64,000 nt of DNA from Bacillus rhizoplanae (GTDB lineage Bacteria > Bacillota > Bacilli > Bacillales > Bacillaceae_G). The stretch spans positions 62,001-126,000 of the forward strand of contig NZ_CAKJTI010000001.1 of NCBI RefSeq assembly GCF_917563915.1. Direction: 5' to 3'. The position numbers and the translations under genes were made by a program. Each line of letters opens with the position of its first letter. The first letter of the stretch is position 1. Of this stretch, positions 1,385 through 58,475 are shown in pieces. The notes under the pieces were generated by a model. That model searched no databases. It was given only the letters and a program-made list of their open reading frames with translations, and was not told the origin of the DNA.

Positions 1385-2335
1385 ATGATAAGAATTTGTG
1401 CAGTAACAAAAGAAAATGAAGTATTATATGATTTGTCATTAGAAGAAACAAAGCGAGAAGATATTGTGTGGTTTTGGCTAGATTTATGTAAACCGACGAA
1501 AGAAGAGTATACATATATTTTACAAGACTATTTCAAATTCCATCCCCTTGCGATTGAAGATTGTTTAGAATATGTACAGAGGCCAAAGGTTGACTTTTAT
1601 GAAGGGTATCACTTTTTAGTTCTTCATGCTTTTAGTGAAGATGGATTAGAGCCGCATGAAATTGATTTATTCGTTAGTGATCATTTTGTTGTATCCTTTC
1701 ACTTTTCGCACAATAAGGCGATTGAACGAGCATGGAATAAACTTGGGGAAAGACAACGTATAAAGAGAAGCACTCTTCATGTAACGCATACAATTATTGA
1801 CCAAATTGTCGATGATTATTTTGCTCCGGTATATTATATTGAAGATCATTTAAATGCAATTGATGACAATTTAACAGGGGATATAGCAAGTACTGTATTA
1901 GAAGAGGTATTTGATATTCGCTCTGATTTATCAAAATTACGAAGAACAATTGTACCAATGCGCGATTTATTGTATCGTATTTTAAATTCAACGCGTTTTC
2001 ATGGTGTGAATGATCATGAAATTTATTTTAAAGATATTTATGATCACCTGTTAAAATTGTCTGAGATGATTGAAACAAGCCGAGAACTGACAGCTGATAT
2101 TCGCGATAGTTACTTTTCGCTAAACTCTCATCATATGAATAACATTATGAAAACGTTAACGGTTTTTTCAACCATTTTCATGCCATTAACATTTATTGTT
2201 GGTGTATATGGAATGAATTTTGACAATATGCCAGAGTTAAAGTGGGAGTATGGTTATTATATTTGTTTAGCCATAATGGCTCTTATTGGTGGTGGCATGA
2301 TGGTATGGTTTTATAAGAAGGGCTGGTTTAAATAA
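1385..2335 (+). CDS. corA: CorA-family magnesium/divalent-cation transporter
   Basis: Inner-membrane pentameric Mg2+ (Co2+) channel. The 316-residue product has a large acidic cytoplasmic N-terminal domain with long helices and two C-terminal membrane helices; the diagnostic YGMNF signature closes the first helix and is followed by NMPEL in the loop. ATG 1385 is chosen because GGGTGA lies four bases upstream; earlier in-frame starts at 1358 and 1373 fall in or just after the pdp terminator. The TAA stop sits inside the ATAAA end of a bcr1-like element, so the element begins exactly where the gene ends. Confidence 0.93.
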   Translation: MIRICAVTKENEVLYDLSLEETKREDIVWFWLDLCKPTKEEYTYILQDYFKFHPLAIEDCLEYVQRPKVDFYEGYHFLVLHAFSEDGLEPHEIDLFVSDHFVVSFHFSHNKAIERAWNKLGERQRIKRSTLHVTHTIIDQIVDDYFAPVYYIEDHLNAIDDNLTGDIASTVLEEVFDIRSDLSKLRRTIVPMRDLLYRILNSTRFHGVNDHEIYFKDIYDHLLKLSEMIETSRELTADIRDSYFSLNSHHMNNIMKTLTVFSTIFMPLTFIVGVYGMNFDNMPELKWEYGYYICLAIMALIGGGMMVWFYKKGWFK

Positions 2336-2486
2336 AGTGAAACTTTCATCAGTAGGGGCTTTCTCCCCCACTGATGGTTAGTTGAACCAACCGGACACAT
2401 GCCAGCAGTTGTCCGCCACTTATCCTCTTCGTTTCTCTCTACATCTTGAGGTGGTGGTCTTATTGCCTGCGAATAGCGGGATAATA
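2332..2486 (-). repeat. bcr1-like element, copy A (about 155 bp)
   Basis: Reverse-orientation copy running from ATAAAGTGAAACTTTC to GCGGGATAAT. It contains all recognisable blocks of the family: the hairpin around CATCAG...CTGATGG, GGTTAGTTGAACC, the purine/pyrimidine-rich paired arms and the CGAATAGCGGG hairpin. Its left terminal ATAAA includes the corA stop codon. Confidence 0.9.
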
Positions 2487-2517: not shown

Positions 2518-3807
2518 TTAGCCGATGGCATGTAACACAAACATGAGTAAGAAGAGACACGTGATAGTATAAAGAGGTTTTGCAACTTCTTTATGTTTAC
2601 CAAGTGCTACTTTTAAGATTGGATATGCAATGAATCCAAAAGCAATACCATCAGCAATGCTATATGTGAGCGGAATCATAACGATAATTAAAAACGCTGG
2701 AAATCCTTCTGAAAAATCGTTCAGAGGAATTTGTTGAATGTTTGTAATCATTAAACCGCCAATAATAATTAAGATTGGAGCGATTGCACTATCTGGAATT
2801 AACTTTACAAACGGTAAAGCAAACAATGAGGCAAAGAATAATCCGCCAGTGACGATAGACGTCAGACCTGTCTTGCCGCCCGCTGTAATACCAGCAGCAC
2901 TTTCTATTGTAGAAACAGTTGGACTTGTGCCAAATAGCCCGCATGTCATCGCTGAAATTGCATTTGCTTGATAAGCACGAGGGAATTTACGCTGATCTTC
3001 TAATAAACCGTGCAAAAGCCCCATGTTTTCAAAAATGAGTACCATACTCAATGAGAACGTTGCAATTAAAAATGGTAAAGAAGTCAGTTTCCCAAACGAC
3101 ATTGCACCAAAAACATCACCATAGTTAGCAAATGAAAATGAACTATTGCCAACTTGACTTGTATCAACAATACCAAATAACCAGGAAATTCCGGTTCCAA
3201 TTGCAATGGTCCATAAAAAGTTTCCACGTACATTACGAATAAATAAAACTAATGCAACAATAAGCGTAAGCAGTGTAGCTAGAACAACGGGACTACCTAA
3301 ATTTCCTAATGCAACAGCAGTGTTCGAATTCGCAACGACAATGCCACCTTTTTGCAAGCCGATAAATGCTAAAAATAGCCCGATACCGACAGTAATCGCT
3401 TCTTTTAACGACTTTGGAATTGCAGTAGAAAGTGTACGAGCAATAGGTGTAAACGCGGTAATTGTAAAAATAATACCAGCGATAAAGACAGCTGCTAATG
3501 CTTCTTGCCAAGTTAAACCAAGCGTATGCACAGCTGTGTACGTGAAAAACGCATTTACTCCCATACCTGGTACAAGAATCACCGGTGCATTTGCCCAAAA
3601 TGCCATCAATAGACAGCCGATAAATGAGCTAAATACAGTTGCCAAAATTCCTGCTTCAAGGGGAATACCAGCATCTGATAAAATAGATGCATTCACAATC
3701 ATAATATAAACAATCGTGAAAAATGATGTTACACCAGCAACTACTTCTTGTTTTGGCGATGTGTGATGTAGGTCTAATTTAAATGTTTTTTCAAGGATTC
3801 CTTTCAT
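2518..3807 (-). CDS. AzgA/NCS2-family guanine-hypoxanthine permease (PbuG/PbuO-like)
   Basis: Proton-driven uptake of purine bases across the cytoplasmic membrane. The 429 residues are almost wholly hydrophobic, with about 12 membrane helices, and show the family's VAGVTSFFTIVYIMIVNASI start, the PGMGVNAFFTYT motif and, in the second half, SPTVSTIESAAGITAGGKTG. Length equals that of B. subtilis PbuG/PbuO. ATG 3807 follows AAGAAGG. Which purine is preferred cannot be decided from sequence. A structured-looking leader lies upstream. Confidence 0.88.
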   Translation of the reverse strand: MKGILEKTFKLDLHHTSPKQEVVAGVTSFFTIVYIMIVNASILSDAGIPLEAGILATVFSSFIGCLLMAFWANAPVILVPGMGVNAFFTYTAVHTLGLTWQEALAAVFIAGIIFTITAFTPIARTLSTAIPKSLKEAITVGIGLFLAFIGLQKGGIVVANSNTAVALGNLGSPVVLATLLTLIVALVLFIRNVRGNFLWTIAIGTGISWLFGIVDTSQVGNSSFSFANYGDVFGAMSFGKLTSLPFLIATFSLSMVLIFENMGLLHGLLEDQRKFPRAYQANAISAMTCGLFGTSPTVSTIESAAGITAGGKTGLTSIVTGGLFFASLFALPFVKLIPDSAIAPILIIIGGLMITNIQQIPLNDFSEGFPAFLIIVMIPLTYSIADGIAFGFIAYPILKVALGKHKEVAKPLYTITCLFLLMFVLHAIG

Positions 3808-5881: not shown

Positions 5882-6038
5882 TTTATCCCGCTATTCGCGG
5901 GCAGTAAGACCCCCGCCTCAAGATGTAGAGAGAAGCGAAGAAGATAGGTGGGGGATAACTGCTGGCATGCGCCCGATTGGTTCAACTAACCATCATTTGG
6001 GGATGAAAAACCCCCACTTGATGGAGGTTTCACTTTAT
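5882..6038 (+). repeat. bcr1-like element, copy B (157 bp)
   Basis: Full-length forward copy bounded by TTTAT at 5882-5886 and 6034-6038, containing CCCGCTATTCGCGGG, CCCCCGCCTCAAGATG, GATAGGTGGGGGATAACTGC, GGTTCAACTAACC and the terminal GTTTCACTTTAT. Its right end supplies the stop codon (TAA, 6035-6037 on the minus strand) of the convergent deaminase-like gene. Confidence 0.92.
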
Positions 6039-11205: not shown

Positions 11206-11590
11206 GAGTATTTCCCCCTAATTCTTTATAGTATGAATCAATCCAATCATGAATTTTTTCTTTTGAAATACCGAGATAAGAAGCTTCTAGTAATAATTGA
11301 TGAAATTGTTTTTCCACCATAGCAATTTTCCTTTCATCTTGTGTTGGAGTAATCGATTGGCATACAAATGTTCCTTTGCCTCGCAGTGTTTCAATAATTC
11401 CTTGTCGTTCTAACTCTTGATACGCTTTACTCACTGTATTTGGATTTACCACGAGTGAAGAGGCAAGTTCCCGAACAGAAGGGAGTTTATCATTTGGTGC
11501 GAGCATTGCTTTTAAAACTAGTTCCTTTACGTTGTGAACAATTTGTTCCCATATCGGAGTGTTGCTTCTTGGATCAAGTTGAATGTGCAA
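11171..11590 (-). CDS. GntR-family (YtrA subfamily) regulator
   Basis: A 139-residue regulator with an N-terminal winged helix (PIWEQIVHNVKELVL, then KLPSVRELASSLVVNPNTVSKAYQ) and only a short helical C-terminal tail, which defines the YtrA subfamily. Such proteins repress an operon with ABC exporter genes. TTG 11590 is favoured over TTG 11596 because AGGAGG stands eight bases before it. An inverted repeat TAAGTGTA / TACACTTA downstream of its own promoter is the probable operator, so the operon is likely autoregulated. Confidence 0.88.
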   Translation of the reverse strand: MHIQLDPRSNTPIWEQIVHNVKELVLKAMLAPNDKLPSVRELASSLVVNPNTVSKAYQELERQGIIETLRGKGTFVCQSITPTQDERKIAMVEKQFHQLLLEASYLGISKEKIHDWIDSYYKELGGNTHAEGDKRKENN

Positions 11591-11618
11591 GAGCAATGCC
11601 TCCTTCCTGATGAATTTT

Positions 11619-11647
11619 TAAGTGTACTATTAAACGTAATACACTTA
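11619..11647 (-). promoter_or_regulatory. Operator-like inverted repeat of the GntR operon
   Basis: Perfect 8 bp arms TAAGTGTA and TACACTTA separated by 13 bases, just downstream of a -10-like TATTGT (11650-11655) and upstream of the gntR ribosome-binding site. AGTGTA/TACACT arms are characteristic of YtrA-type operators. Confidence 0.75.
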
Positions 11648-11649
11648 AT

Positions 11650-11678
11650 ACAATATATAGCATACTTTTGTTTGTCAA
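11650..11678 (-). promoter_or_regulatory. Sigma-A promoter of the GntR-ABC operon
   Basis: On the minus strand TTGACA (11673-11678) and TATTGT (11650-11655) with a 17-base spacer; the overlapping TATATT is an alternative -10. Confidence 0.6.
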
Positions 11679-11699
11679 TGCTATTTTTAGAAAAAGATG

Positions 11700-11728
11700 G
11701 TATAAAAACCCTTCATTTGGAAAAGATA
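11700..11728 (+). promoter_or_regulatory. Candidate forespore (sigma-F) promoter of dacF
   Basis: GTATA (11700-11704), 14 bases, then GGAAAAGAT (from 11719). This fits the GYWTA / GGNNANANT pattern of sigma-F, the known regulator of dacF in B. subtilis. Confidence 0.5.
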
Positions 11729-11755
11729 GGTGTGATATAGAATGGAGGGTTAGTC

Positions 11756-12934
11756 ATGAAGCGATTGATTGGAATACTTGTTTGTTTCATGTTATTGCTT
11801 TCCGCTGTTCCAATTGGTTTTGCGCAGTCTGAGAAAAAAGAAGCGGAAACAAAACCAAAGCTAGCGGAACAAGCATTGTCAGCGATTGTTATTGAACAGG
11901 ATACGGGAAAAGTTTTATTTGAAAAAAGTCCAAATGAAAAGTTGCCACCTGCTAGTATGACAAAAATTATGACCATGCTACTCATTATGGAGCAAATTGA
12001 AAAAGGAAAGTTAACACTGAAAGATAAAGTGAGAACGAGTGAACATGCAGCTTCTATGGGCGGATCACAAATTTTCCTTGAGCCTGGTGAAGAAATGACA
12101 GTCAATGAAATGTTAAAAGGCATTGCAATTGCATCCGGAAATGATGCATCAGTTGCAGTTGCTGAACATATTGCTGGGTCAGAAGAAGGATTTGTAGACA
12201 TGATGAATAGAAAAGCGAAAGATTTAGGACTTAAAAATACTCATTTTCAAAATCCAACAGGCCTTCCAGCCAAGAACCATTATTCAACAGCATATGATAT
12301 GGCAGTTATGGCAAAGGAATTAATGAAATACCCGTTAATTCGTAAATATACAGGTAAATATGAAGATTATTTACGAGAAGATACGGATAAGAAATTTTGG
12401 CTTGTGAATACAAACAAGCTTGTTCGGTTCTATCCAGGTGTTGATGGCGTGAAAACAGGCTTTACAACAGAGGCAAAATATTGTTTAACAGCATCTGCAG
12501 AGCGAAATGGCATGCGCGTCATTTCTGTTATCATGGGATCTCCAACATCAAAAGAACGTAATGCGGAAGTAACGAAGCTTCTTGATTATGCATTTAGTCA
12601 ATATATGACACAAAAAATGTATACAAGAGGCGAAAAAATTCAGACAGTAAAAGTTGGAAAAGGAAAAAAAGAAACTGTCGACTTAGTTGCGTCTGACAAT
12701 GTTTCTCTACTAATGAAAAAGGGAGAAACGATGAAAAATATTAAAAAAGAAGTAGTTGCTGAGGAAAAAGTAAAAGCTCCAATTAAAAAAGGAGATGCTT
12801 TAGGTACACTTGTCATAAAAAAAGATAATCAAGTATTACTCAAACAGACAATTGTTGCGAAAGAGGATGTCGCAGCAGCAAGCTGGTGGGAGTTATTTAA
12901 ACGAAGTTTTGGGATGTTTTCGACATCGAAATAG
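11756..12934 (+). CDS. dacF: D-alanyl-D-alanine carboxypeptidase DacF (penicillin-binding protein)
   Basis: Trims the terminal D-Ala of peptidoglycan stem peptides during spore cortex formation. The 392-residue product has a signal peptide ending near FAQS, the acylation motif SMTK (Ser67), SGN (127-129) and KTG in VDGVKTGFTTEA, followed by a C-terminal beta-rich PBP5-like domain with an amphipathic end. GGAGGG precedes ATG 11756. As in B. subtilis it lies just before spoIIAA, under a probable sigma-F promoter. Confidence 0.95.
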   Translation: MKRLIGILVCFMLLLSAVPIGFAQSEKKEAETKPKLAEQALSAIVIEQDTGKVLFEKSPNEKLPPASMTKIMTMLLIMEQIEKGKLTLKDKVRTSEHAASMGGSQIFLEPGEEMTVNEMLKGIAIASGNDASVAVAEHIAGSEEGFVDMMNRKAKDLGLKNTHFQNPTGLPAKNHYSTAYDMAVMAKELMKYPLIRKYTGKYEDYLREDTDKKFWLVNTNKLVRFYPGVDGVKTGFTTEAKYCLTASAERNGMRVISVIMGSPTSKERNAEVTKLLDYAFSQYMTQKMYTRGEKIQTVKVGKGKKETVDLVASDNVSLLMKKGETMKNIKKEVVAEEKVKAPIKKGDALGTLVIKKDNQVLLKQTIVAKEDVAAASWWELFKRSFGMFSTSK

Positions 12935-12962
12935 CGGCAATTTTGTTGCCGCTTTCTCTTTT
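12934..12962 (+). terminator. Terminator after dacF
   Basis: GCGGCAA-TTTTG-TTGCCGC hairpin followed by TTTCTCTTTTG. Read-through to spoIIA, known in B. subtilis, would have to pass it. Confidence 0.75.
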
Positions 12963-13047
12963 GTTGAATTTGTTGTTATCTCAATGGTAAGAGATGTTGC
13001 TAGAAGGTTCATTTTATGACGAAATAGTACTTCTTTTGTCAGGTAGA

Positions 13048-13072
13048 AGGATTCTACATCTATATTAGAGAA
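13048..13072 (+). promoter_or_regulatory. Candidate sigma-H promoter of the spoIIA operon
   Basis: AGGATTC (13048-13054), 13 bases, GAGAA (13068-13072); weak match to the sigma-H consensus AGGAWWT / RGAAT, at the position expected for spoIIA control. Confidence 0.35.
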
Positions 13073-13129
13073 AAACTTCTTATATGTTTTGCGTGTATAC
13101 GCGAATTTTGAATGTAAGGAGGAAATAGA

Positions 13130-15825: not shown

Positions 15826-16287
15826 ATGACACCGCGAAAATTGAAAGATGATTATACAAATAACGTGAAAAAGTATCAATCAAAACCTAACTATGTTATG
15901 AATTGCGTCAAGGCTTTTGTTGTGGGAGGGCTTATTTGTATATTAGGTGAAGCTTTGATGAAGATGTATATACACTATTTTGATTTTACGGAGAAAAATG
16001 CGGGAAATCCAGCAATCACAACATTAATATTATTGTCGGCCATTTCAACGGGGATTGGTGTATATGATAAACTTGGACAATTTGCAGGGGCAGGATCAGC
16101 AATCCCGGTTACTGGATTTGCAAATTCAATGGTGAGTGCAGCAATGGAACACCGCAGTGAAGGGATTGTTCTTGGGATTGCCACTAATATGTTCAAGATT
16201 GCTGGAAGTGTAATTGTATTTGGTGTTGTTGGAGCGTATGTTGTAGGTCTCATTCGGTATACATGGAAGCTGTTTATCTCGCCCTAA
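15826..16287 (+). CDS. spoVAC: Stage V sporulation protein AC (dipicolinate channel subunit)
   Basis: Mechanosensitive channel subunit of the SpoVA complex; 153 residues with four or five helices and the conserved GIGVYDKLGQFAGAGSAIPVTG, shared with SpoVAEb. ATG 15826 follows GGAGG. The last codons (TTT ATC TCG CCC TAA) coincide with the 5' end of a shrunken bcr1-like element, so the native C terminus may have been replaced by Phe-Ile-Ser-Pro from the repeat. Confidence 0.93.
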   Translation: MTPRKLKDDYTNNVKKYQSKPNYVMNCVKAFVVGGLICILGEALMKMYIHYFDFTEKNAGNPAITTLILLSAISTGIGVYDKLGQFAGAGSAIPVTGFANSMVSAAMEHRSEGIVLGIATNMFKIAGSVIVFGVVGAYVVGLIRYTWKLFISP

Positions 16288-16372
16288 TGGCAGTAATCTC
16301 TCACCTTAAGATTCAGAGAAAACGAAGAGGATAGGTGAGGTGGGAAATCACTAAGGGAAGTTTCACTTTTTG
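16273..16372 (+). repeat. bcr1-like element, copy C, internally deleted (about 100 bp)
   Basis: Begins with TTTATCTCGCCCTAATGG (overlapping the end of spoVAC), continues with CTCACCTTAAGATTCAGAG and GATAGGTGAGGTGGG, and ends AAGTTTCACTTTT. The central CCCGATTGGTTC...hairpin block is missing. It occupies most of the spoVAC-spoVAD gap and reads in the same direction as the operon. Confidence 0.82.
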
Positions 16373-21827: not shown

Positions 21828-22417
21828 GTGCGACCTTTGTTGAGGGCGGAAGCGTTGATTTTTAATCGTGATAGGATAAGTATATTTATTCAATGTGATA
21901 CAAACGAAGAGTTTTATCCCGCACTAACGGGCAGTAAGACTCCCACCTCAAGATTCAGAGAAAGCAAAGAAGATAGGTGGGAGATAACTGCCCGTAAGGG
22001 CCCGATTGGTTCAACTAACCATCAGTGGGGGTGAAGAAAACCCCACTGATGGAAGTTTCACTTTATCGTTTGCCTGGTGGGTCGATTGAGTTTGGAGAAA
22101 GTGCTGCAGCGGCAATTGAAAGAGAGTTTGTGGAAGAATATGATTTACAAGTAACAGCAGAGCATTTTGCAGCTGTAAATGAACATATTTTTGAGGCAGA
22201 TAATCAAAAATATCATCATTGTACGTTATTGTATTGGTGTACTGTTAAAGAAGGTGAGCGGGCAGTAAGATGGCATAAAGAGCATTCTGATATTATGTTA
22301 AAGTGGGAAGAAATTAGTAAATTGAAAGCAACGCCAATATATCCAGAAGGGGTTATGAAAATTATTGAACAGAATAAAAAAGAACCTGTGCATTGGCTTG
22401 AGGAAGTAACATACTAA
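21828..22417 (+). pseudogene. Nudix hydrolase gene split by a bcr1-like element
   Basis: The 5' part (GTG 21828 to 21917) encodes VRPLLRAEALIFNRD and on to CDTNEEFY; the 3' part (from 22067) continues RLPGGSIEFGESAAAAIERE and FVEEYDL, a perfect Nudix box (GX5EX7REUXEE), then a normal C terminus. Removing 149 bases (element plus one TTTAT copy) restores a continuous 146-codon frame; with it, the frame shifts and closes in the element. GAAGGAAG precedes GTG 21828. The disrupted state is certain; residual expression of the 3' part from ATG 22025 or 22049 inside the element is possible but lacks a good ribosome-binding site. Confidence 0.93.
21913..22066 (+). repeat. bcr1-like element, copy E (154 bp), inserted in the Nudix gene
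   Basis: Complete copy with TTTAT at 21913-21917 and 22062-22066. The host sequence reads GAAGAGTTTTAT before and TTTATCGTTTGCCTGG after, so TTTAT is the duplicated target. Internal pairing ACGGGCAGT / ACTGCCCGT and the GTGGGG...CCCCAC hairpin are intact. Confidence 0.95.
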
Positions 22418-23041: not shown

Positions 23042-23192
23042 TTTATTCAGTTATTTGCAGGCAATAAACATCCACCTCAAGATTCTGAGAAAATAAAGAA
23101 GGTAGATGGGGGATTACTGCTAGCATACCTCGATTGGTGAGAGTTTTCCATCAGTGGGGGATGAAAAAACATTGATGGAAGTTTCAATTTAT
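23042..23192 (+). repeat. bcr1-like element, copy F (151 bp, diverged)
   Basis: TTTATTCAGTTATTTGCAGG, CATCCACCTCAAGATTCTG, GGTAGATGGGGGATTACTGC, CGATTGGTGAGAGTTTTCC and the terminal GTTTCAATTTAT. It belongs to the GGTGAGAGCTTTCC subtype and carries several substitutions, including one in the right terminal block. Confidence 0.85.
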
Positions 23193-24361: not shown

Positions 24362-24517
24362 ATAAAGTGAAACTTCCATCAGTGGGGGTTTTTTTCACCC
24401 CCCATTGATGGTTAGTTGAACCAATCGGGCGCATGCCAGCAGTTATCCCCCACCTATCTTCTTCGCTTTCTCTAAACCTTGAGGTGGGAGTCTTACTGCC
24501 TGTTAGTGCGAGATAAA
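24362..24517 (-). repeat. bcr1-like element, copy G (156 bp)
   Basis: Reverse copy from ATAAAGTGAAACTTCCATC to GCGAGATAAA, with GGTTAGTTGAACCAATCGG and CCCCCACCTATCTTCTTCG. It lies upstream of ypuF and downstream of the YjcZ-like gene. Confidence 0.92.
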
Positions 24518-37895: not shown

Positions 37896-37970
37896 CGAAA
37901 ATCCCTCACTTGTTATCAATTTGTTACTATTGTATCATAATTGTAACAAAAAATCATCTTTAGATTACAG

Positions 37971-38121
37971 TCTGCTATTCCTAGGTAGTTATCCCCTCTT
38001 AATATTTAGAGAGAAGTGAAGAAAATAGATGGAGAATAGCTGCTGTCACGTGCCTGGTTGGTGAGAGCTTTCCGTTAGTGAGAGATGAAAAAAACCTCCA
38101 CTAATGGAGGTTTCACTTTAT
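37971..38121 (+). repeat. bcr1-like element, copy J (about 150 bp, diverged 5' end)
   Basis: Degenerate left end (CTGCTATTCCTAGGTAGTT), then AGAGAGAAGTGAAGAAAATA, GGTTGGTGAGAGCTTTCCG, and an intact right end CTAATGGAGGTTTCACTTTAT. Its terminal TTTAT holds the stop codon of the leftward nitroreductase gene. Confidence 0.85.
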
Positions 38122-46402: not shown

Positions 46403-46548
46403 TAAAAAAACCTCTCAGCTAAGGAGAGGTTTTTACAACCAGCTCCTTATCTGTCAGCTTAATGCTGCGAGAATTAGCACCGTGCCTATATAAAATAGAT
46501 CGGTTGCCGGGTTTCATTGGGCTCGTCCCTCCACCTGCTCTTGATAAG
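46403..46548 (-). promoter_or_regulatory. SAM-I riboswitch (S box) controlling mtnWXBD
   Basis: On the minus strand: CTTATCAAGAGCAGGTGGAG, GGGACGAGCCC, ATGAAACCCGGCAACC, GGCACGGTGCTAATTC and GACAGATAAG (46444-46548), then the terminator AACCTCTCCTTAGCTGAGAG with T-run (46403-46435). High SAM favours termination. Confidence 0.96.
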
Positions 46549-46602
46549 AAGTATTCGGAAATATTTTAATTTTTTTAATAACTGAATTCTGACAGAGAAT
46601 TT

Positions 46603-48747: not shown

Positions 48748-48942
48748 CTCTTATCAAGAGCAGGTGGAGGGATTTGGCCCGATGAAGCCCAGCAACCGAC
48801 CGTAATACCATTGTGAAATGGGGCGCACAATTCGCGCCTAGTAAGGCACGGTGCTAATTCCAACAGAAAGAGAGACTTTCTGATAGATAAGAGGGGAGAA
48901 GTGAATCTTCAAACCTCTTTCGTCATCGAAAGGGGTTTTTCT
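48748..48942 (+). promoter_or_regulatory. SAM-I riboswitch (S box) controlling mtnK
   Basis: CTCTTATCAAGAGCAGGTGG, GATGAAGCCCAGCAACCGAC, AAGGCACGGTGCTAATTCC and GATAGATAAGAG form the aptamer (48748-48893), with an extended P3 stem. The terminator AAACCTCTTTCG...CGAAAGGGGTTTTT is at 48911-48942; GAGGGG after the aptamer can pair with CCTCTTTC as antiterminator. Confidence 0.96.
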
Positions 48943-50435: not shown

Positions 50436-50588
50436 ATGGAGGAATGGATATCGGTTATAGGCAATGTTGGCTTTCCAATTGTTGTTACGCTATACTTACT
50501 GCATAGAATTGAAAGTAAGTTAGATAGCGTTATTGTCGCGATTGAGAAGTTACCAAAGCAGATGCAAAGATATGAAGCTCCAAAATAA
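50436..50588 (+). CDS. YvrJ-family small membrane peptide
   Basis: A 50-residue peptide with one helix (VIGNVGFPIVVTLYLLHRIE) and a polar tail (KLDSVIVAIEKLPKQMQRYE), the layout of YvrJ-family proteins. GGGAGGAGA precedes ATG 50436. The TAA stop lies in the terminal ATAAA of a bcr1-like element. Role unknown. Confidence 0.8.
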   Translation: MEEWISVIGNVGFPIVVTLYLLHRIESKLDSVIVAIEKLPKQMQRYEAPK

Positions 50589-50739
50589 AGTGAAACTTCC
50601 ATCAGTGGGGGATGAGGTCCCCCACTGATGGAAAGCTCTCACCAATCGGGCTCTTAGGGGCAGTTATTCCCCGCCTATCTTCTTCGCTTTCTCTAAATCT
50701 TGATGTGGGGGTCTTACTGCCCAAAAGTAGCGGAATAAA
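50585..50739 (-). repeat. bcr1-like element, copy L (155 bp)
   Basis: Reverse copy bounded by ATAAA at 50585-50589 and 50735-50739, with the long perfect hairpin CATCAGTGGGGG / CCCCCACTGATG and GAAAGCTCTCACCAATCGGG, i.e. the GGTGAGAGCTTTCC subtype. The left end encodes the stop of the YvrJ-like gene. Confidence 0.92.
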
Positions 50740-55165: not shown

Positions 55166-55354
55166 TCACAACATAAGTTGATAAGAAATTATTATATTTA
55201 CATTAGGATGATTATGGGAAATTACAGCATCAAGGTATGTATATGTAGTGTTCTTGTTGTTGGGTTTTTTAGCGGTGTGATTGTTATGTAATAAGATGAT
55301 TAGAAATGTAGCGATTATGAGTACTTTTTTTGGAATCGCTTGTTTATCCCGCAT
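55166..55354 (-). CDS. Possible small exported protein, start supplied by a bcr1-like element
   Basis: An open frame of 62 residues: RDKQAIPKKVLIIATFLIIL looks like a signal sequence, followed by HTAKKPNNKNTTYTYLDAVI and SHNHPNVNIIISYQLML. The ATG at 55354 lies inside the terminal hairpin of element M, so the original 5' end may have been lost. Coding status uncertain. Confidence 0.4.
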   Translation of the reverse strand: MRDKQAIPKKVLIIATFLIILLHNNHTAKKPNNKNTTYTYLDAVISHNHPNVNIIISYQLML

Positions 55355-55498
55355 TAACGGGCAGTAAGCCCCCCACCTCAAGATTGAGAGAGAAGCAAAG
55401 AAGATAGGTGGGGAAAACTGCCCGTAAAAGCCCGATTGGTTCAACTAACCCTCAGTGGGGGATGAAGAAAACCCCCACTGAGGGAAGTTTTACTTTAT
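55343..55498 (+). repeat. bcr1-like element, copy M (156 bp)
   Basis: Forward copy with TTTAT at 55343-55347 and 55494-55498. It shows CCCGCATTAACGGGCAGTAAG (minus a base here), CCCACCTCAAGATTGAGAG and the hairpin CCCTCAGTGGGGG / CCCCCACTGAGGG, in which A-T of other copies is C-G. Confidence 0.93.
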
Positions 55499-55985: not shown

Positions 55986-56143
55986 TTTATCCCGCATTAA
56001 CGGGCAGTAAGCCCCCCACCTCAAGATTCAAAGAGAAGCAAAGAAGATAGGTGGGGGGAAAACTGCCCGTAAAAGCCCGATTGGTTCAACTAACCATCAG
56101 TGGGGGATGGAAAAAACCCCCACTGATGGAAGTTTCACTTTAT
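55986..56143 (+). repeat. bcr1-like element, copy N (158 bp)
   Basis: Forward copy with TTTAT at both ends, ACGGGCAGT / ACTGCCCGT pairing, and the perfect hairpin CCATCAGTGGGGG / CCCCCACTGATGG. Nearly identical to copy M. Confidence 0.94.
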
Positions 56144-58341: not shown

Positions 58342-58475
58342 TTTATCCCGCGTTAACGGACAGTAAGACCCTCACCTCAAGATTCAGAAAAAAACAAAGA
58401 AGATAGGTGGGGGATAACTGTCCGTAAAAGTTCGATTGGTTCGACTAACCCTTAATGAAGGAAGTTTCACTTTAT
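58342..58475 (+). repeat. bcr1-like element, copy O (134 bp, shortened 3' hairpin)
   Basis: TTTAT ends at 58342-58346 and 58471-58475. ACGGACAGT pairs with ACTGTCCGT, a compensated G-C to A-T change relative to copies E, M and N. The CAGTGGGGG hairpin is reduced to CCTTAATGAAGG. Confidence 0.92.

Follow-up and report, generated by a model that had tools for sequence, protein, structure and literature searches.

A bcr1-like element in a split Nudix gene of Bacillus rhizoplanae and the probable single-strand mobility of its family

The bcr1 repeat of the Bacillus cereus group has reportedly been treated by Okstad 2004, Klevan 2007 and Kristoffersen 2011. An excerpt of PMC6542083 describes the first element of this kind as confined to the B. 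cereus group, and excerpts of two accounts label it MITE-like or list it as a MITE (PMC6542083, PMC3446304). For 18 bcr repeat families taken together, the second of these excerpts reports expression of about half of the copies in one B. cereus strain and of 40% in a second strain (PMC3446304). Members of the IS200/IS605 family, as described in excerpts of three further accounts, produce no target duplication, insert 3′ of a pentanucleotide, carry subterminal hairpins and take an orientation that follows replication (PMC7290912, PMC6006769, PMC5371812). Among the matches listed in a literature search covering titles and abstract openings, with the original bcr1 papers outside its scope, none linked bcr1 to IS200/IS605 transposition, which is no proof of absence.

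Here we describe a bcr1-like element that lies within a Nudix gene of Bacillus rhizoplanae, together with its relatives across the Bacillales. As an instance, a bcr1-like copy within a gene is ordinary; the mechanism is not. We propose that bcr1-like elements are probably non-autonomous transposons consisting of ends only, which travel as single-stranded DNA by the IS200/IS605-like HUH/Y1 route known as 'peel and paste'.

A Nudix gene interrupted by a bcr1-like element

In the window, by which we mean the whole 64-kb stretch of DNA analysed, a Nudix open reading frame on the plus strand is divided into a 5′ half of 30 codons with a GTG start (21828-21917) and a 3′ half of 116 codons plus stop (22067-22417). 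Both halves are stop-free (21828-21917 and 22067-22414), in agreement with the sequence-only reading, which had described a 146-codon frame with no other lesion; that figure is the sum of the two, since the halves were translated and searched apart by tblastn rather than joined. Each half alone was matched in 9/9 homologues (L001-L009), with a right-half identity of 41-47%. Across all nine loci, locus position 6000 holds the final residue of the left half (Y) and position 6001 the initial residue of the right half (R). Because residues of both halves fall on adjacent codons in every homologue, the claim of insertion stands: a bcr1-like element is inserted into a formerly continuous Nudix gene, as had been supposed. 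This evidence for an intact gene is at the protein level only, the best relative in the scanned genome collection being at 47%.

The interruption follows a target TTTAT at 21913-21917 (plus strand), defined by sequence and family comparison. The element itself occupies 149 bases (21918-22066, plus strand), as delimited by sequence and by the other copies in the window; its body starts with CCCGC at 21918, and it closes with a TTTAT at 22062-22066 (plus strand) that family comparison of flanking 5-mers probably assigns to the element. The downstream flank reads CGTTTG from 22067. Counted with both TTTATs the span is 154 bases, so the sequence confirms the 154-base element, bordered by TTTAT on both sides and splitting the Nudix frame, that had been read there. 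The earlier statement that it encodes no transposase is likewise borne out by the sequence and the list of open reading frames. As these 149 bases hold no gene, the element is not fileable as an autonomous IS200/IS605 member and could at most be a trans-mobilised derivative.

Counting the Nudix copy, the window holds 11 bcr1-like copies, one of them partial. The other ten lie at 2332-2485 (minus strand; left 5-mer ATTAT, right TTTAT), 5882-6038 (plus), 16273-16369 (plus; the partial copy, no right end found), 23042-23192 (plus), 24362-24517 (minus), 37965-38121 (plus; degenerate left end), 50585-50739 (minus), 55343-55498 (plus), 55986-56143 (plus) and 58342-58475 (plus; without the 3′ arm of the right hairpin). 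They are 72-91% like the Nudix copy over the aligned part, a range that does not bear out the suggestion in the sequence-only reading that the insertion is probably recent. Given 11 copies in the window and a fold far below shuffles, the Nudix-borne element is not a product of chance. It is called bcr1-like for its length, its TTTAT ends and its copy number, and after the name used in the earlier reading, not by comparison with a published consensus. The placing of the window in the B. cereus group likewise goes back to the repeat and the earlier reading. At the Rfam gathering score the window yields two SAM riboswitches alone (46444-46550, minus; 48748-48893, plus), and a search of 11 loci yields nothing; the three weak Rfam matches at the Nudix element are all to unrelated families.

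Beyond the window, the order of G007 was sampled with a covariance model built from 31 copies, which detected relatives of the element in at least 56 of 150 Bacillales genomes, all counts from this model being lower bounds owing to strict filters and to the scoring of at most 20 candidates per genome. In a DNA search, 7 of the 10 genomes behind the Nudix homologues contained relatives. Searched against plasmids by blastn, the element returned three records, from Pseudalkalibacillus, Peribacillus and Klebsiella, none of them from the B. cereus group. The Klebsiella grimontii plasmid pNY3A (L077, about 2981-3072) bears a bcr1-like element that has TTTAT at each end and lies close to a restriction endonuclease gene; this copy in a Gram-negative plasmid possibly reflects transfer from Bacillales. 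The phage collection gave no match to the Nudix element or to L152. Among viral contigs, the element was present in 13/13 retrieved with the left flank of one site and in 6/6 retrieved with the right flank of another, and no empty site was found in these contigs. Copies at two fixed places in related viral contigs (L149-L152, L230-L240) suggest long retention in a prophage family.

Length variants of the element were also seen. In extended variants, GATTGGTT and CAACTAACC are separated by about 57 to 161 inserted bases that include small hairpins (L099, L102, L107, L109; L148, L153, L156, L157; L210, L227). Several of these inserts contain ACAGGAYGT or its complement, and the hairpin array seemingly lies in either orientation, depending on the genome. 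Minimal forms of about 50-60 bases (L154, about 3700-3753; L155, 3596-3649; L219, 733-777) resemble products of deletion between CCCCAC runs in the two hairpins, left and right.

Flanking pentanucleotides and empty sites

Empty sites were compared in fetched 20-kb stretches by setting the flanks of G050 copies against uninterrupted homologues in G089. Eight flank pairs were examined, four of which were informative: three empty sites read a single TTTAT (L270/L222, L271/L210, L272/L214), and the fourth, L261/L217, reads TCTAT. The junction had diverged in L279/L271, L281/L265 and L265/L281, and L288/L313 was filled in both. Past mobility, which the sequence-only reading had asserted for the Nudix copy, is borne out for the family by the empty sites of other members. 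The four G050/G089 sites fit either duplication of the target or a TTTAT borne by the right end of the element, and it is copies in targets other than TTTAT that separate these two readings.

The clean case of this kind is one locus, L265_9910, and the reading rests on this and other copies elsewhere than the Nudix locus. L265_9910, which is 2.7% from the consensus of its genome, has TTCAT as its left flank and TTTAT as its right end. Five loci were compared: G089, G159 and G160, its three nearest relatives, have TTCAT at the empty site, which has diverged in the remaining two, G119 and G147. L263_8340 has GTTAT on the left and TTTAT on the right; the G160 empty site reads GTTAT and its right flank differs by two bases (AT), and in G159 and G089 the site is changed. 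L266_9989 likewise has GTTAT on the left and TTTAT on the right, and the 5-mer before the flank homologous to its right flank is ATTAT in G089, ATTAT in G159 and CTTAT in G160. As supporting cases, these two loci appear to point to no duplication, less cleanly than L265_9910. For the empty site of a TTGAT copy (L255 of G083), no usable relative was found.

Left and right 5-mers do not covary across the family. The left 5-mer is TTTAT in 102 of 146 matches, and one-base variants are common among the rest. Of these matches, 8 lacked a left anchor, 5 lacked a right anchor and 3 were duplicates; among the remaining 130 copies, TTTAT is at both ends in 81, the left end only is deviant in 36, the right end only in 7 and both in 6. 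About five of the 36 (TTATC three times, CTTTA, ATTTA) are apparently shifted by one base in anchoring, and the right anchor is misplaced in one of the 6 (L257). The asymmetry of 36 versus 7 (binomial p 9e-6) recurs among the 97 non-tandem copies as 27 versus 5 (p 1e-4), p values that are optimistic because the copies share ancestry and the left-only class includes some anchoring offsets. In the five non-tandem copies with both ends deviant the two 5-mers are unequal, and equal variants occur in 0/97. Equal variants are present in a tandem copy, L244 (CTTAT on both sides), and in an array copy, L245 (TTAAT on both sides), which has a degenerate left end and is tandem on its right. The 53 copies less than 8% diverged comprise 9 left-only, 2 right-only and 0 both-deviant cases, which is not significant alone.

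Because mutation alone predicts several changes on the left at this divergence, our argument rests on the asymmetry and the empty sites rather than on the number of left variants. Taken from these comparisons, the right TTTAT is probably the last five bases of the element, with no target duplication. The 5-bp duplication that had been read from the Nudix locus is not supported, in view of L265_9910, where a TTCAT empty site corresponds to TTCAT on the left and TTTAT on the right, and of the lack of joint variation in the two 5-mers. Equal flanking pentamers are not proof of target duplication.

Hairpins, replication and candidate enzymes

The element strand folds into two hairpins at -64.5 kcal/mol (z -7.8, 0/200 shuffles), and the opposite strand folds with a z of -7.4. 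The left subterminal hairpin (21927-21995, plus strand), defined by the fold and by covariation of the outer stem, consists of an outer stem, an internal loop and an inner stem; the right one (22019-22052, plus strand) is defined by fold and covariation. Across 31 copies, 94.4% of cells are standard pairs and 12 of 18 pairs show compensatory change with both sides changed, covariation being present in both hairpins. The covariation score was reached by 0/500 shuffles, and its advantage over slid versions is partly expected because the structure was predicted from the same alignment. The element has subterminal hairpins at both ends, and terminal inverted repeats are absent as judged by eye.

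The strand with leading-strand sequence is the template of the lagging strand. Using GC skew as a proxy for replication direction, with elements masked and the element strand defined as TTTAT, left end, right end, we scored 102 copy clusters from 20 genomes, in stretches chosen from the best-scoring listed copies and not at random; the element strand was that of positive skew in 73 clusters and the opposite one in 24, with 5 ambiguous. Divided by flanking-gene class relative to skew, the concordant and discordant clusters number 34:18, 18:4, 15:2 and 6:0. In likelihood-ratio tests, skew given gene directions afforded a p of 9e-9, and gene directions given skew a p of 0.02. TTTAT itself lies on the skew strand at a frequency of 50% outside ORFs and 54% overall, against which 73/97 yields p values of 4e-7 and 2e-5, respectively; this TTTAT skew is too small for strand bias of the pentanucleotide to explain the orientation.

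In G089, 29 of 40 listed copies are concordant with the terminus set at 1.75 or 1.85 Mb, and 26 of 40 (p 0.08) with the terminus at 1.95 Mb. Discordant copies equal or exceed concordant ones in several few-copy genomes (concordant:discordant, G021 0:2, G007 1:2, G054 0:1, G142 0:1, G073 2:2). In the window, 8/11 copies lie on the positive-skew strand, 14 of its 16 4-kb segments being positive. Overall, element orientation tends to follow replication, whatever direction the flanking genes take.

A possible relation to IS605 emerges at the left end. An IS605 of Sporosarcina thermotolerans (G010) that carries tnpA and tnpB is inserted after TTTAT, and its left hairpin resembles the bcr1-like left hairpin (nhmmer E 0.006). 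Related IS605 elements in G050 and G105 begin TTTAT/CC, the slash marking the boundary, and most other IS605s of the G010/G050/G105 class follow TTTAA. A profile of 21 left ends of this class searched against the 20-kb stretches gave 66 matches at E<=50, the best two being IS605 left ends; 37 of the 66 fall on bcr1-like repeats (best E 0.035), which make up 1.1% of the sequence, and those among the 40 best of the 66 lie on the matching strand. We consider this left-end similarity weak and the link no more than suggestive. Compared at both ends with autonomous IS605 elements, the bcr1-like repeat is like those of G010, G050 and G105 on the left and differs from them on the right. The IS605 right ends examined, whose limits were set partly by eye, end near TTCAAC, TTCAA or TTGAC without TTTAT, so the bcr1-like right end is without an autonomous counterpart. 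IS605 right ends can encode guide RNA; a guide-RNA-like bcr1 right end was considered and set aside, as no match was seen by eye among the IS605 right ends examined.

PF01797 (Y1_Tnp) was found in 125 of the 150 genomes, a frequency at which its presence has little power, and it showed no association with the element (45/56 element-positive and 80/94 element-negative genomes). It is absent at E<=1e-3 from 3 of the 28 genomes with at least nine element matches (G054, G065 and G135) and also from G003 (12 element matches), gene absence from a possibly incomplete genome being weak evidence. In G089, where copies are as close as 0.7% to the consensus, an IS605 TnpA alone exceeds the cut-off, in two copies with TTGAT as target, and no RAYT-length Y1 gene does so. 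TnpA of the TTTAT/TTTAA class occurs at E<=1e-40 in 19/150 genomes, 8 of them element-positive versus 48 of the other 131, and at E<=1e-20 in 22 genomes, 10 of them element-positive; over the 150 genomes it showed no association with element presence. A comparison with PF07282 covered 10 genomes, too few to show association. Among the matches listed for Y1 genes (46 loci), no bcr1-like repeat lies within about 1.5 kb except at the IS605 left ends of G010.

L221 of G089 (11485-13100) has a TTTAA-class left end followed by a 398-residue ORF that by eye is TnpB-like, about 1.4 kb from a bcr1-like copy. In two related genomes, a Y1 protein of 194-199 residues, possibly RAYT-like, is found in similar surroundings (L408 of G159 and L411 of G050).

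The mover may have disappeared following a burst, may be too divergent, or may be another single-strand enzyme. An unrecognised single-strand integrating enzyme may exist because G003, G054, G065, G135 and G089 have no fitting PF01797 protein. We tentatively entertain, with more doubt than confidence, a widespread Bacillales class of single-strand transposons that has identical cleavage pentanucleotides at both ends and a mover other than a recognisable Y1 transposase.

Proposed mechanism and comparison with known systems

In the proposed mechanism, the element would fold on the lagging-strand template into its two subterminal hairpins, and a putative enzyme acting in trans would cut directly 3′ of the TTTAT flanking the left end. 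The same putative enzyme would make its other cut directly 3′ of the five-base TTTAT with which the element closes, and the excised single strand would enter 3′ of another TTTAT-like pentanucleotide exposed at the fork. Since target and right-end cleavage site usually have the same five letters, such insertion would mimic a 5-bp target duplication. Direct support comes from the lack of duplication (one clean site, two supporting), the site preference, the covarying hairpins, the orientation with GC skew and the spread of the family; a single-strand circular intermediate, the identity of the enzyme and any role of guide bases at the feet of the hairpins are what we infer beyond these. The earlier statement that the element moves in trans or by an unknown mechanism can in this way be narrowed to probable insertion into the single-stranded lagging-strand template by a putative enzyme.

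A classical MITE would owe its TTTATs to a DDE transposase whose staggered cut of 5 bp duplicates the pentanucleotide, and the TTTAT at both ends of 81/130 copies, the single TTTAT at three empty sites, the two tandem-array copies with equal variants on both sides and the MITE-like label or MITE listing in excerpts of the literature (PMC6542083, PMC3446304) all agree with such an origin. We nevertheless judge it improbable in view of the TTCAT target and TTTAT right end of L265_9910, equal variant 5-mers in 0/97 non-tandem copies, an orientation linked to replication, and ends that by eye are not inverted repeats of each other. Lagging-strand hairpins would likewise be used in an integron-attC-like, site-specific recombination of the folded single strand, with a candidate host or mobile tyrosine recombinase crossing over at TTTAT. 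This route needs no Y1 enzyme and fits the head-to-tail arrays, in which tandem copies share one TTTAT (for example G076 640055-640562; also G021 and G054); the resemblance of the bcr1-like left end to IS605 left ends argues against it, and we think it an unlikely source of the family.

Retro-insertion could leave an orientation bias, and a candidate reverse transcriptase might act on a structured transcript and insert it into the lagging-strand template. The strand folds well as RNA too, and copies of bcr repeats are partly expressed in B. cereus strains, as the excerpt of PMC3446304 states. IS200/IS605 accounts better for the retention of both exact ends and for an insertion point 3′ of a pentanucleotide, and no Rfam family matched the element at gathering score; insertion by way of RNA strikes us as very improbable indeed. 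If IS200/IS605-like movement as single-stranded DNA is the true reading, a repeat conspicuous in the B. cereus group, and in many other Bacillales as well, would be a passenger of the replication fork. The question of what moves bcr1 would then be testable, as movement should depend on strand, on the hairpins and on a trans-acting single-strand transposase.

Like bcr1, the element described here is a short interspersed repeat with a TTTAT motif, many copies and a MITE-like label. It departs from the restriction to the B. cereus group given in the excerpt of PMC6542083 in having relatives in at least 56/150 Bacillales genomes, and from published bcr1 in that the right TTTAT is read here as probably part of the element. 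Unlike a MITE of a DDE transposon, it has no terminal inverted repeats as judged by eye, and target duplication is not supported. With REP sequences and TnpA-REP (RAYT) it shares short, palindromic, non-coding repeats that are possibly moved by Y1 enzymes; it differs from them in having two hairpins per unit with TTTAT ends, and in that no repeat lies near the Y1 genes listed (46 loci) except the G010 IS605 left ends. From the IS200/IS605 family and its ends-only derivatives (PATEs) it differs in the lack of tnpA, in the same pentanucleotide at both cleavage sites and in that no autonomous element with a matching right end was found. With them it shares a probable absence of target duplication, a point of insertion 3′ of a pentanucleotide, hairpins in subterminal position and an orientation that follows replication.
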